In this document: in pieces, positions 42,935-61,609 of the stretch
Layout: each line of letters begins with the position of its first letter
How positions within the stretch are numbered: position 1 is the stretch's first letter
DNA from: Rhodothermales bacterium
GTDB taxonomy: Bacteria > Bacteroidota > Rhodothermia > Rhodothermales > VXPQ01
Direction: 5' to 3'
DNA length: 64,000 nucleotides
NCBI GenBank assembly: GCA_022821845.1
Contig: JAJECT010000012.1
Span: forward strand, 47,501 to 111,500
The notes under the pieces: generated by a model
Told to the model about the DNA's origin: nothing
The model's input: only the letters and a program-made list of their open reading frames with translations
Databases searched by the model: none
Made by a program: the position numbers and the translations under genes

Positions 42935-42971
42935 GGATACTCTGAGTTTCGTGGGCTTAATCAGAGTATCC
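42935..42971. repeat. GGATACTCTGA palindrome upstream of the RND operon
   Basis: GGATACTCTGA (42935-42945) and its exact inverse TCAGAGTATCC (42961-42971) around a 15-base spacer. The spacer and right arm (42946-42971) match 58641-58666 with two mismatches in 26 bases. It looks like two ends of the 58413-58666 element joined after loss of the middle, or a regulator site. Confidence 0.6.
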
Positions 42972-55193: not shown

Positions 55194-56549
55194 TTATCGC
55201 CCGCGGGAACGACCTGAAGACGAGGAAGACCCTCCCGAAGAAGACCGTCCGCTGCTGCCCGACGAGGACCTGGGCGGCGGGGAAGAACGCACGGTGCGCC
55301 CGCTCGAGCCGCTTCCGCTGCTGCGCGAGGAGGGTGTCCGCTGTACAGTGCGTCCGCTCGAGCTGCTTCCGCTGCTGCGCGAGGAAGGCGTCCGCTGTAC
55401 GGTGCGCCCGCTTGAGCTGCTTCCGCTGCTACGCGAGGAGGGCGTCCGCCGTACGGTGCGTCCGCTCGAGCTGCTTCCGCTGCTGCGCGAAGAGGGCGTC
55501 CGCTGTACAGTGCGTCCGCTCGAACTGCTTCCGCTACTGCGGGAGGAGGGCGTCCGCCGGACGGTGTTCCGGTTCCCGGTGGACGACGAGGACCGGGAGC
55601 CTGGCGTCCGCTCTACGGTGCGTCCGCGCGAACCGCTATCGCCGCTGCGCGAGGAGCCGGACGTGCGCACTGCGCTCCGGCTGCCGCTGGGCGAGGAAGA
55701 TCGGGACCCTGGCGTCGAGCGTACGGTCCGCCCGCTGGATCCGCTCCTTGTCGCGGTAGTGCGCCGCGTATCGCGGGTTCTGCTGGTCGTGGCGTCCGTT
55801 CCGCCGCGCGCCGAACGCCCGCCGGAAACAGCCGAGCCGCTGCGCGTCTTGCTGGCGGAAGCGCCTCCCGCGTTGCCTATCTCGCGGACGCCGTTCCTTC
55901 CGACGTCCCCGGCGTATCCATGGGTTCTCGCCCCTCGCCCCATGGTCGCGCCGCGCCGTCCCCATTCCCCGTCTCTCGGGCGAATCGATCCCGGATAATC
56001 GTACCGCCACCCCCCGTAATACGGATTCCAGGTGTGCGCGTAGCCCGGATAGTAGCCGCCGTAGGGACGGTGGTAGTACGGATTATAGTTCCAGGGACTG
56101 TAATGGTAGGGGCTATAATGCCACGGGCTGTGCCCCCAGCGATTTCCGCCCCAGCCCCAATGCGATCCGAAGGAGACGCCCACGCTAATGCCGCTGTATC
56201 CGTATCCGTAGCTCCAGGGATCGTACCAAAGCGGGTCGTGCCAGGACGACCCGAAGAACGGACTGTAGGACCATTGCGGGCTCCAGCCGTAGTCGAACCG
56301 GTCGAAATACCGGCGATATCCGTAGGGACCGCTGTAGATGTACCGGTCGCTGTAGTAGCGTTCCGTTACCACCGTGTCCTCGGCGCTTTCCACCACTTCC
56401 ACGTAATCCGGGTACCGTTCGTATTGCTGAACGGTGCTCAATTGCGTGTAACAACCGGACAGCAACGCCACAAGCAGTCCTGCGGCGAACGGCGCCGCGC
56501 GTAATGCGGGGCGAGCGGTTTCCCGCTCATGTAATGTCGATCGTTTCAT
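55194..56549 (-). CDS. Repeat-rich lipoprotein with Tyr/Trp domain and Ser/Arg tail
   Basis: A protein of 451 residues. A lipoprotein signal (PFAAGLLVALLSGC, Cys ~33) leads. The next ~160 residues are Tyr/Trp/Pro/His-rich (YYSDRYIYSGPYGYRRYF, then HSPWHYSPYHYSPWNYN), a low-complexity surface segment. The C-terminal ~240 residues are Ser/Arg/Gly/Thr, ending in tandem 18-residue units of the form SSSSGRTVQRTPSSRSSG (54-bp DNA repeats, 55284-55566). This recalls other Bacteroidota envelope proteins of unclear role (binding, adhesion or matrix). The DNA repeats make the opposite strand open too, and they are prone to length change between strains. Confidence 0.65.
   Translation of the reverse strand: MKRSTLHERETARPALRAAPFAAGLLVALLSGCYTQLSTVQQYERYPDYVEVVESAEDTVVTERYYSDRYIYSGPYGYRRYFDRFDYGWSPQWSYSPFFGSSWHDPLWYDPWSYGYGYSGISVGVSFGSHWGWGGNRWGHSPWHYSPYHYSPWNYNPYYHRPYGGYYPGYAHTWNPYYGGWRYDYPGSIRPRDGEWGRRGATMGRGARTHGYAGDVGRNGVREIGNAGGASASKTRSGSAVSGGRSARGGTDATTSRTRDTRRTTATRSGSSGRTVRSTPGSRSSSPSGSRSAVRTSGSSRSGDSGSRGRTVERTPGSRSSSSTGNRNTVRRTPSSRSSGSSSSGRTVQRTPSSRSSGSSSSGRTVRRTPSSRSSGSSSSGRTVQRTPSSRSSGSSSSGRTVQRTPSSRSSGSGSSGRTVRSSPPPRSSSGSSGRSSSGGSSSSSGRSRGR
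55284..55566. repeat. 54-bp tandem repeats inside the lipoprotein gene
   Basis: A conserved anchor (GTCCGC within AGGGCGTCCGC) recurs at 55336, 55390, 55444, 55498 and 55552, each 54 bases apart, so about five units. They encode 18-residue Ser/Arg repeats on the minus strand. Confidence 0.85.
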
Positions 56550-56866: not shown

Positions 56867-58342
56867 ATGGCCGATGCGATTACAAGCCGGCAGGAAGATT
56901 ACGCCCAATGGTATCTCGACATTGTGCAACATGCGAAGCTGGCCGACTATTCGGCGGTGCGCGGCTGCATGGTGATTCGCCCGAACGGCTGCGCGCTTTG
57001 GGAGAATATGCGCCGGGCGCTCGACGACATGTTCCGCGAAACCGGGCATGAGAACGCCTATTTTCCCCTGTTCATACCGCAGTCCTTCCTGGCGCGGGAA
57101 GCCGAGCACGTGGAGGGATTCGCCAAGGAGTGCGCCGTGGTTACCCACTCGCGCCTTGCGGAAGACCCCTCTGGCGAGGGCCTCCTGCCCGACCCCGCTT
57201 CGAAACTGGAAGAGAATCTTATTGTCCGTCCCACCAGCGAAACGATTATATGGGACGCGTACCGGAGCTGGATTCAATCCTGGCGGGACCTGCCCATTCT
57301 CGTGAATCAATGGGCGAATGTCGTGCGCTGGGAAATGCGCACCAGGCTGTTCTTGCGCACGATGGAATTCCTGTGGCAGGAGGGGCACACGGCCCACGAA
57401 ACGAAAGAGGAAGCCATCGAGGAAGCCCGCCGCATGCTGGAAGTATACGCTACGTTCGCCGAGGAATGGATGGCCATGCCGGTGATTCGGGGCGTAAAAA
57501 CGGCCAGCGAGCGTTTTGCGGGCGCGGTGGACACGTATTGCATCGAGGCCATGATGCAGGACGGCAAGGCGTTGCAGGCAGGCACCAGCCATTTCCTGGG
57601 CCAGAACTTCGCCAGGGCGTTCGACTGCCAATTCCAGAATCGGGAAAACCAGCTCGAATATGTGTGGGCGACGTCCTGGGGCGTCTCGACCCGTCTGATC
57701 GGCGCGCTCATTATGACGCATTCGGACGATCAGGGCTTGATTCTGCCGCCGCGCCTTGCGCCCGTGCAGGTGGTGATCGTGCCTATTTTCCGGAAAGACG
57801 CCGAGCGGACGGTTGTGCTCGAAGCGGCCGAGCGCATCCAGGCGGCCCTGCGCGCGGCGGGCGTTCGCGTCAAACTGGATGCGCGGACGTCGCACCGTCC
57901 CGGCTGGAAATTCAACGAATACGAAGTGCAGGGCGTACCCGTCCGCCTCGCTATCGGCCCGCGGGACGTCCAGAATGGCAAGGTGGAAATGGCCCGCCGG
58001 GATCAGCCCGGCAAGGAAATCGTTTCGCAGGAAGGGCTTCCCGACCGCATCCGGGCGGCCCTCGACGATATTCAGCAAGGCCTGTTCGACCGGGCGCTGG
58101 CCCTGCGCGAAGAGGCTACCCGGCGCGTCGACGACTACGAGACGTTCAAGGACACGCTGGACCGGCGCGGCGGGTTCGTGCTGGCCCACTGGGACGGCGA
58201 TCCGGCGACGGAGGCGCGCATCAAACAGGAAACGAAAGCGACCATCCGCTGTATTCCCATGGATGGCGCGCAAGAAGCGGGTCGGGATATGCTGACCGGC
58301 AAGCCGTCGAACCGCCGCGTTCTGTTCGCCCGCGCCTATTGA
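56867..58342 (+). CDS. proS: Proline-tRNA ligase, archaeal/eukaryotic type
   Basis: A protein of 491 residues. Class II core motifs: [40 protein letters not shown] with [11 protein letters not shown], and the anticodon-binding domain ([20 protein letters not shown]). No long editing insertion is present between motifs 2 and 3. A C-terminal extension ends in the conserved Tyr (FARAY). This is the type-3 ProRS of archaea, eukaryotes and some bacteria, which differs from the longer bacterial type of E. coli. It charges tRNA-Pro. It stands alone on the plus strand, followed by the nested-palindrome element. Confidence 0.95.
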
Positions 58343-58412
58343 GTATCCTTGACGCAAGCACGCATTCACAGGAGAACCCGTACATCGGACTGCGCATCGA
58401 CCGAAGGCTACA

Positions 58413-58666
58413 GGATACTCTGATCAAGACCGCTTCGCTCAGCGCGTCACGTTCGCCAGTAAAGAACGTCATGCCTGAATCATTGAAATCAGCAGAAAAC
58501 ACTGTAGATTCGGTATGCCGTGGACGTGACGCGCCCTTCGGGAGGCTGCGAGGGGCACGCTGGCTGTGTCATTCCTCATTACGTGGGGCCTACCACGCTG
58601 CTTCGTCATTCCTTGCCAGCGCACCCCTCGCAGCCTCTGAGCTTCGCGGGCTTAATCAGAGTATCC
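58413..58666. mobile_element. MITE-like or structured-RNA element with nested inverted repeats
   Basis: A roughly 250-base block after proS. The outer ends GGATACTCTGA (58413-58423) and TCAGAGTATCC (58656-58666) are exact inverses; similarity extends to about 20 bases with mismatches. Inside are an 11-bp perfect pair (58442-58452 with 58524-58534, GCGCGTCACGT) and a 23-bp pair (58542-58564 with 58615-58637, two mismatches). Folded, an outer stem would close two hairpins. The bases TACA flank both ends (58409-58412 and 58667-58670), as in a target-site duplication. No transposase is encoded. The outer motif recurs at 42935 and 61595. Confidence 0.6.
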
Positions 58667-58714
58667 TACATTGATTCGTCCGGCCCTGATCTCAAACCGG
58701 GAGCGTACCGTCTC

Positions 58715-61153
58715 GTGCGCGCTGCATTCGCTTTTTTCGCTTTCGCCGTCGCCGTGTGGCCCTTTGGCGCCCTCGCCCAGGAATGGGGGGCGGCGTCCGG
58801 GCGCGTCCTGACGGCTGCGGAGGACGCCCCTCTCCCCGACGTCAGCATTCTGGTAAGCGGAACCAACTTTGGCACCGCAAGCAGGCAGGACGGGACCTAC
58901 GTGCTCCGGCTGCCGCCGGGAACCCATGCGCTGCGCTTCTCGGCGGTGGGGTACGAGACCGCGCGGCGGCCCGTACAGATTCGCCCCAACGAAACGACGG
59001 CCCTTGACGTTCGCCTGAGGCCATCCCTGGTCGAGATGGAGGATATTGTGGTGGAAGGGGATGTATTTTTTACGGACCCCGGGGCGTACGAACTGGAATC
59101 GGAGACCATCCGCAACGTGCCTTCTCCGTTCAAGGGATTCCAGGCGCTCAGCGTCCTGCCGGGCGTCGCGGCCAACAACGAACTTTCCAACCAGTATTCG
59201 GTGCATGGCGGCGGATTTCACGAGAATCTTGTCCTGATCCACGGGTTCGAGACGTACATGCCGTTGCGCCCGAGGCAAGGGGAGCAGGAAGGGCTTGGCT
59301 TGCTGAATCCCGACCTGGCCGACCGGGTCGTGCTGTACACGGGGGGATTTCCGGCGAAATACGGCGGAAAATTGTCCTCGGTGCTGGAAACGCGCTATCG
59401 CCGCCCGCATGTCGAATCCATGGCCGGGTCCGCCTCGGCGTCGTTGCTGGACGCCAGCGTTGCGCACCGGGGCGCCGCGGCGGGCGGGCGTTTTGGGTGG
59501 AACGCCGGTTTTCGGAAAGCGCGCGCGCAGCATTTCTTCCGTACGCAGGAGCGGAAGGGGGATTATCGTCCCGACTACACGGACGTACAGGCGCTCGCGA
59601 CCTGGCGCTTCGGGGCGGGGCATGAGATCGAAGCGCTGGGCATGTACGCCAACCATGTGTTCCGATTCAGCCCGGAGAGCCGCAAGACCTGGTTTGGCGT
59701 CGTGAGCCTCGACCCCGACGTACCCTCGGACCTGCGTTCTTTCTGGACCCGGTACGAGGGCGCGGAAAACGACGGGTACCGAACGCGGTTCGCGGGGGTT
59801 CGTTTGCTGAACCGGCTCGCTCCTTCGGTCCATGCGGAGCACGACGTGGCCTGGTTTGGCGTTTCCGAGACGGAACGTTTCGATATCGAGGGGTCTTCGG
59901 TGGTGTTTCGCGTCGATCCCGGCGGCGATCCGGCCACCGGCGCGGGCCATGTTCCCATAGGCAATGTGACCGAAGAGGAGTTCGCCGACAACGCCATAGA
60001 AAGCGCCGCATGGACCGGGCAGGGGCGGTATCGATGGCGGGCGGGGCGGCATGCGGCGGAGGCGGGCTGGCGCGTCCGGGCCTATTCCTTTTCCGACCGG
60101 ATCGACGAGTACGCCAACCTGTACGGCAGGGACACCAACGGGGAATCCGTGCGCATCGAGGCGAATCGCTTCTCCGACGAAGCCGCGCTTTCGGCGTGGC
60201 AAACCGCTGCGTACGCGCAGAATACCATGCAGCGCGGCGGGCTGCTCCTTACCGCCGGGGCGCGGGCGGACCGTTTTTCGTTCAACGGCGCCTGGACCGT
60301 CTCGCCGAGAATTTCGGCCCGGTACGCGGTCAGCGAACGCTTCGCGGCGACCAGCTCGTGGGGCTATTATCACCAGACGCCGACCTATCGCGAATTTCGG
60401 GGAACGCCTGCGCCGGGCGAAGCCATCCCCGACGCGCTGAACAGGGATATCCGGTCCCAGCAGGCCATACAATATGTATTGGGCGGCGAATATTTTTTGC
60501 CCGCCCGGCGGCTGCATGTCCGCGCCGCCGCCTTTTACCGGGATATGGACCGGCTCATATCCTACGACGTACGAAACGTGCGCCTCCTGTATTCCGGGCG
60601 GAACGATACAGAGGGGCAGGCGCTGGGGCTGGACGTGCACCTGTACGGCGAACTCGTGCCCGGCCTCGAAAGTCGCCTGAATTACGGGTATCTGCGCGCC
60701 GTCGAGACGTTTCTGCCGGAATACCGGACCGAGCATCGCAGCGGAACCATTGCGCGTCCGTCGGATCAGCGGCACACCATCTCGTTTTTCGTGCAGGACT
60801 ATGTGCCGCGGGATTCCACCTGGAAAGCCCATCTGCGCGGGCTTTTCGGGAGCGGATTTCCCTACACCCCGCCCATCCCGGACCGGCAAGTCGGGCAATT
60901 CGTGGTTCAGGCGCCCGGCGAACGCAATTCGGCCCGGTACCCCGCGTACCGCCGCGTCGATATTGGCGCAACGAAGACGGTGCGCGTCGCCGCGGGCTTG
61001 CGCCTGGAATTGACCATGGAACTACTCAATGCGTTCAATATGACGAACACGGTGGCCTATGCCTGGACGCCCAACCGCGACGGAATCTGGGAGCGCATTC
61101 CCACGCGCCTGACGCCGCGCACGTTCAATCTCCGGGTTCGCCTCGCGTGGTGA
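58715..61153 (+). CDS. TonB-dependent receptor, SusC/CirA-like
   Basis: 812 residues from a GTG start at 58715, with GGGAG about 10 bases upstream. The open frame reaches back to 58520, but that part crosses the palindromic element, so the start after it is preferred. It gives a clean signal peptide (MRAAFAFFAFAVAVWPFGAL, cut near AQ). A carboxypeptidase-like domain (~25-110) precedes the plug (~125-250, YSVHGGGFHENLVLIHGFET, GGFPAKYGGKLSSVLETR) and a beta barrel ending TFNLRVRLAW. It should take up a nutrient or siderophore. Ligand unknown. No partner lipoprotein of the SusD type is adjacent. Confidence 0.9.
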   Translation: MRAAFAFFAFAVAVWPFGALAQEWGAASGRVLTAAEDAPLPDVSILVSGTNFGTASRQDGTYVLRLPPGTHALRFSAVGYETARRPVQIRPNETTALDVRLRPSLVEMEDIVVEGDVFFTDPGAYELESETIRNVPSPFKGFQALSVLPGVAANNELSNQYSVHGGGFHENLVLIHGFETYMPLRPRQGEQEGLGLLNPDLADRVVLYTGGFPAKYGGKLSSVLETRYRRPHVESMAGSASASLLDASVAHRGAAAGGRFGWNAGFRKARAQHFFRTQERKGDYRPDYTDVQALATWRFGAGHEIEALGMYANHVFRFSPESRKTWFGVVSLDPDVPSDLRSFWTRYEGAENDGYRTRFAGVRLLNRLAPSVHAEHDVAWFGVSETERFDIEGSSVVFRVDPGGDPATGAGHVPIGNVTEEEFADNAIESAAWTGQGRYRWRAGRHAAEAGWRVRAYSFSDRIDEYANLYGRDTNGESVRIEANRFSDEAALSAWQTAAYAQNTMQRGGLLLTAGARADRFSFNGAWTVSPRISARYAVSERFAATSSWGYYHQTPTYREFRGTPAPGEAIPDALNRDIRSQQAIQYVLGGEYFLPARRLHVRAAAFYRDMDRLISYDVRNVRLLYSGRNDTEGQALGLDVHLYGELVPGLESRLNYGYLRAVETFLPEYRTEHRSGTIARPSDQRHTISFFVQDYVPRDSTWKAHLRGLFGSGFPYTPPIPDRQVGQFVVQAPGERNSARYPAYRRVDIGATKTVRVAAGLRLELTMELLNAFNMTNTVAYAWTPNRDGIWERIPTRLTPRTFNLRVRLAW

Positions 61154-61609
61154 ACGGGCGGGGAACCCCTCGCGGCCTTGCCGTTAAAAGGGCTATTCCT
61201 TCCGTAAACGGATGCGAATAGCGCGCGCCTGATGCGGATGCATATAAGAACCTGACAAGAATATCTTCAGGGAGTCGGTCTTCGGGTTCGGACGGCAGGC
61301 CCAGCCTCCTTCTACGCAAGCGAGGTCTTTTCTTCGGAAAGGCAGGGACGATCGAAAGAATGCGAGTGATTCCCGCATTGTTCAAGGTAGAGGTTCTTCT
61401 ATCCACCGCTCGGGAGCGCGTCCTTTTCGGGAGACGCCCCGGCGCCGGTTTCGGGCGCTTGCCGCGCCTGGACGGGCCGGGGCGCCCCGCTTTTTCGCGA
61501 ACGGCGGGGCGCGGGGACGGCGGGCGACGATCTGTCCTGCGTATCCTGATCCATCGAACGTTGCATTTGGCGCTGGCTCGCGCAGAAAAATCAAGGATAC
61601 TCTGAGCCT
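61154..61609. other. Non-coding gap before ccmF
   Basis: About 450 bases, GC-rich. A perfect 9-bp GCGCCCCGC / GCGGGGCGC hairpin lies at 61482-61512. The motif GGATACTCTGA is at 61595-61605, 4 bases before the ccmF ATG. No gene recognised; the short open frames do not resemble proteins. Confidence 0.45.
61595..61605 (+). repeat. GGATACTCTGA motif before ccmF
   Basis: A single copy of the motif that forms the left end of the 58413 element and half of the 42935 palindrome. No inverse partner was seen close by. Confidence 0.5.

Follow-up and report, generated by a model that had tools for sequence, protein, structure and literature searches.

The sequence at 58413–58666 of the analysed stretch of Rhodothermales DNA (the window, 64 000 nucleotides in total) is best explained as a MITE, a non-autonomous mobile element, of ∼254 bp that generates a 4-bp target-site duplication (TSD), has multiplied within one genus and would be mobilized in trans by a transposase of the IS5 group. 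We assign this reading a probability of about 95%. An earlier note on the same DNA, made from the letters alone, had suggested either a MITE or a structured leader RNA of the neighbouring TonB receptor gene. The MITE suggestion is borne out by further copies in the genome, the statistics of the flanking duplications, exact empty sites and an IS5-family partner whose ends match.

Architecture and setting of the element

The element begins 70 bp past the stop codon of a gene (56867–58342) that appears, on inspection of its sequence, to encode prolyl-tRNA synthetase (ProRS), and it ends ∼45 bp upstream of a GTG at 58715, which is the likely start codon of the next gene, a TonB-dependent receptor according to its domains. 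The mechanically called open reading frame (ORF) of this receptor starts within the element, and inspection of the ORFs inside the 254 bp revealed none resembling a transposase. The features of the region are as follows.

42935–42971: 37-bp mini-element, GGATACTCTGA-15 nt-TCAGAGTATCC; unaligned in the nearest relative (G001)
58339–58352: TTGA-GTATCC-TTGA at the ProRS stop codon; single TTGA in G001
58409–58412: left TSD, TACA; one TACA, without the element, in sister species
58413–58666, + strand: whole MITE copy, 254 bp, with no gene of its own
58413–58431, + strand: left terminal inverted repeat (TIR), GGATACTCTGATCAAGACC; its outer part is common to the ends of IS5-family remnants in G004
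58442–58534: internal hairpin 1, with a perfect 11-bp base stem (58442–58452/58524–58534); missing in some copies
58542–58637: internal hairpin 2, with arms 58542–58564/58615–58637; missing in some copies, for example one in G002
58582–58597: small hairpin inside the hairpin-2 loop (CGTGG/CCACG); compensatory changes among copies at pairs 170–185 and 171–184
58648–58666, − strand: right TIR, ending in CTTAATCAGAGTATCC
58667–58670: right TSD, TACA; one TACA, without the element, in sister species

The nested inverted repeats described in the earlier note (an outer pair, an inner perfect 11-mer and a 23-bp pair) are all present in the sequence at these positions, as are the TACA flanks. The outer arms (58412–58442/58637–58667) are 31 nt long and 84% complementary, the 23-nt arms of hairpin 2 are 91% complementary, and the TIRs are imperfect repeats of ∼19 bp starting with GGATACTCTGATYAA. 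The proposed folding check was run, and the fold of the element lies far beyond that of shuffled sequences, both as RNA (z = −8.7) and as DNA (z = −8.6). The outer motif had also been placed at 42935 and 61595; the former proved to be a complete mini-element rather than a lone motif, whereas at 61595 only the 11 nt GGATACTCTGA were found. The latter position lies within sequence common to the nearest relative; it is probably not a copy. On the − strand at 55234–55674, the window also contains seven 54-bp tandem repeats within a serine/arginine-rich ORF.

Copies, target duplications and decay

A search for full-length copies, as had been proposed, found them in the same genome and in related genomes, together with their TIRs and TSDs. 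The genome of the window (G000, a draft of 45 contigs) carries at least 37 near-full-length copies (85–92% identical) and three further copies that are cut off at contig starts, a count that is a lower bound with 40 candidates scored. The mean identity between copies within this genome is 89%, and the closest pair is 99% identical. The end motif, with at most one mismatch, occurs 169 times in this genome and 123–412 times in each of five sister genomes, compared with 0–1 matches per genome of the genus for a reversed-motif control. Every genome of the genus carries the family (one of 49 genera and six of 114 genomes of the order), which is absent from all 108 other Rhodothermales genomes searched. 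A plasmid search gave no match to the family, and the IMG/VR matches to the end pattern were rejected as elements, being single motifs with no second end. Contigs of the draft often break inside the element: the starts of contigs C2, C20 and C31 and the ends of C5, C10, C15, C37, C43 and C44 fall within copies, and the repeat, which is scattered over the genomes of the genus, therefore probably breaks assemblies.

Identical flanking 4-mers were found at 21 of the 77 full-length copies from the six genomes, against 5.8 expected and a maximum of 12 when the flanks were re-paired; for the genome of the window alone, the count was 12 of 26 against 4.2 expected. No duplication length from 5 to 9 bp stands out among the 77 copies. 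An excess was also seen at 2 bp (15 versus 5.1 expected in the same 77 copies), for which the 4-bp duplication does not account and which may come from AT-rich flanks pairing as TA. Only about one quarter of the copies retain identical flanking 4-mers. The target is AT-rich with the consensus TNNA, mainly TTAA or TAAA, and the insertions lie mostly between or beside genes.

The site of the present element is empty in G004, where it reads GGC-TACA-TTGATT with one TACA, and G003, G002 and G005 also carry a single TACA without the element. The TACA flanks had been taken as consistent with a target duplication; the tetranucleotide is single in these four sister species and doubled here, and the 4-mer statistics agree with that reading. 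The nearest relative, G001, lacks both the element and TACATTGATT at this locus, which suggests a small deletion, so that absence of the element there may not equal a never-used site. For a second copy (L021), the corresponding site in G001 is empty, allowing for one mismatch in the duplicated bases; the site of another (L029) is occupied in both genomes. Two copies in G002 (L153 and L166) have unusually long flanking inverted repeats, of 11 bp and centred on the element, as though the target had been a palindrome; such flanks were not significantly more frequent than in shuffles.

The sequence TTGA-GTATCC-TTGA at the ProRS stop codon probably marks a site from which another copy of the family has been lost, leaving a 6-bp footprint. 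At the same site, G002 has a 165-bp copy with both ends, hairpin 1 only and TAAC on either side, G003 and G005 have 37-bp mini-elements and the mini-element of G004 is degraded. A single orthologous site thus displays several stages of MITE decay. Other reduced forms of the family comprise copies without hairpin 1, truncated copies and mini-elements of 37–77 bp.

A probable IS5-type partner

The earlier note had further proposed looking for a transposase with matching ends, and an IS5-family partner was found, within the genus as broken copies in G004 only. A search of the six genomes with the DDE_Tnp_1 and IS5_4 models recovered three broken IS5-type transposase genes, all in G004 and with ends resembling those of the MITE, and NCBIfam assigns these remnants to the IS5 family (NF033581, transpos_IS5_4). 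A 100% match to a G004 remnant exists in a Rhodothermales MAG chromosome (GenBank OX638295.1). The remnant L124 has lost the middle of its transposase gene and retains both ends, as TTAT/GGATACTCTGATTTAATCC … ATCAGAGTATCC/TTAA, the left end also being given as GGATACTCTGAT. IS5_4 relatives in other phyla are 59–69% identical to the remnants, and the ends of the relatives L137–L139 are the same as the MITE-like ends save for a few bases. L138 has an intact gene of 315 amino acids, the ends GGAACCTCTGAACAAGTCCC and GGAACCTCTGATTAAGTCCC and CTAA on either side, and L139 has TTAA on either side, both being 4-bp duplications of the YTAR type. The outer ∼12–19 bp are common to the MITE and the IS, and the interiors are unrelated.

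Other candidates were considered and rejected. The genus has further DDE transposases (L118, L120, L122 and related genes), none with GGATACTCTGAT ends. In G004, the duplicated sequence that precedes two right ends is part of a family of internally repetitive genes and not of an autonomous copy. Duplicated, internally repetitive genes occupy 115–123 kb and 338–341 kb of G004 (the region of L097 and L108–L109), with a MITE right end downstream in two places.

The mobilizer of the MITE is thus likely to be an IS5-family transposase, judging from the sequences of the remnants and their matching ends. Supplied in trans, such an enzyme would bind the ends common to the MITE and the IS, move the MITE and paste it into a new 4-bp target. 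The six genomes yielded no intact transposase with MITE-type ends, and present mobility is therefore something that we infer; the partner could be missing from the G000 assembly, where contigs break inside the element. With hundreds of end motifs and a transposase that is nearly extinct in the genus, the family offers a tidy case for studying MITE persistence.

The hairpin interior, alternative readings and known systems

Several stem pairs of the interior change on both sides together among the 77 copies; one pair is T–A in 55 copies and C–G in 22, with no intermediates. On the + strand, G–U combinations (317) are not in excess over A–C combinations (377), and in 70 of the 77 copies it is the − strand that has the more stable fold, so that there is no indication of selection for a + strand RNA. 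The symmetry of the arms could be explained by hairpin-templated repair or by a constraint at the DNA level. The interior probably persists as a passenger of functional ends, its long hairpins keeping both arms alike, and service to the TonB receptor gene would not be the reason. Where the neighbouring genes are in tandem, the element has their orientation in 33 cases and the opposite one in ten (p = 0.0006, 77 copies from six genomes), with the genes called by a heuristic and some copies possibly orthologous rather than independent; a cruder gene caller gave 28 versus eight. One possible reason, which we offer as conjecture, is that transcripts containing the − strand hairpin, the more stable of the two, are selected against.

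A different reading of these observations is that selection maintains the interior itself, in the form of a DNA structure or of an oriented element acting at the transcript level, which would turn a stranded MITE into a genus-wide regulatory or insulating repeat that outlives its transposase; we regard this as unlikely. A related proposal, that the sequence arrived as a MITE and is now a chromosomal repeat retained by the host for a function such as transcript insulation or a DNA-binding site, with a preferred orientation, would accommodate the 33:10 bias and the double changes that preserve hairpin pairing. However, closely related species differ in their sites, many copies are decaying and the bias is equally explicable by selection against harm in one orientation, and we consider this proposal distinctly unlikely.

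The suggestion of a structured RNA, according to which the element would be part of the TonB receptor transcript and regulate the receptor as a riboswitch or leader RNA, draws on the strong fold, the proximity of the element to the likely start codon, the compensatory changes in the stems and the predominance of tandem neighbours running in the + direction. However, Rfam 15 at the gathering score matched only two tRNAs in the 64 000-nt window and nothing in the element, no terminator-like site was found and many different genes adjoin the copies. Furthermore, the sister species keep the same TonB gene with the upstream site empty, and the stem changes described above favour no transcribed strand. 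A leader-RNA role is therefore unsupported, and this part of the earlier note is very improbable. Palindromes of the REP/BIME kind moved by a Y1 (RAYT) transposase, which the many copies, their location between genes and the palindromic minimal forms of 37 bp might recall, have a negligible probability, since Y1 (PF01797) was found in none of the six genomes by a search that did recover it in known genomes as a control, and since 4-bp target duplications, to our knowledge not expected of Y1 enzymes, contradict such a system.

The MITE reading also has practical consequences, because the element could otherwise be mistaken for a regulatory RNA or for coding sequence, as with the TonB ORF that starts inside it. 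In addition, the family is suited to studying why hairpin interiors keep pairing. No earlier description of it was found in the literature covered (open-licence papers), and as far as searched it is new as a family, of limited surprise and of a kind of element that is already known; the mechanism is ordinary and well supported.

Among known systems, REP/BIME sequences with RAYT (PMC2817692) are likewise short intergenic palindromes in high number, but differ in that the present genus has no Y1 transposase and its element has a target duplication. The IS5 group of the IS5 family (NF033581) has similar ends (GGAACCTCTGATTAA in the IS and GGATACTCTGATYAA in the MITE) and, like the MITE, a 4-bp YTAR/TNNA target duplication, whereas the MITE has no transposase and an interior unrelated to that of the IS. 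The MITEs of P. gingivalis (BrickBuilt, MITE239, MITE464/PgRS and MITE700) have ends that match IS5-family elements (PMC4596501). They likewise occupy a host of the FCB group, and the interiors of BrickBuilt similarly bear no trace of a transposase, but their ends and interiors differ from those of the Rhodothermales MITE; BrickBuilt has 23-nt tandem repeats and a non-uniform duplication length, in contrast to the hairpin interior and 4-bp duplications found here (PMC4596501). Stable secondary structure and truncated forms are common among prokaryotic MITEs according to a review (PMC10969869). Chunjie of Geobacter and QMITE2 of Coxiella come from other hosts, QMITE2 has duplications of 7–9 bp and both are likened here by description, not by sequence; like the present family, they are ∼190–235 bp elements with dozens of copies and many truncated derivatives, and QMITE2 shares with the Rhodothermales MITE a very stable predicted secondary structure (PMC10969869).
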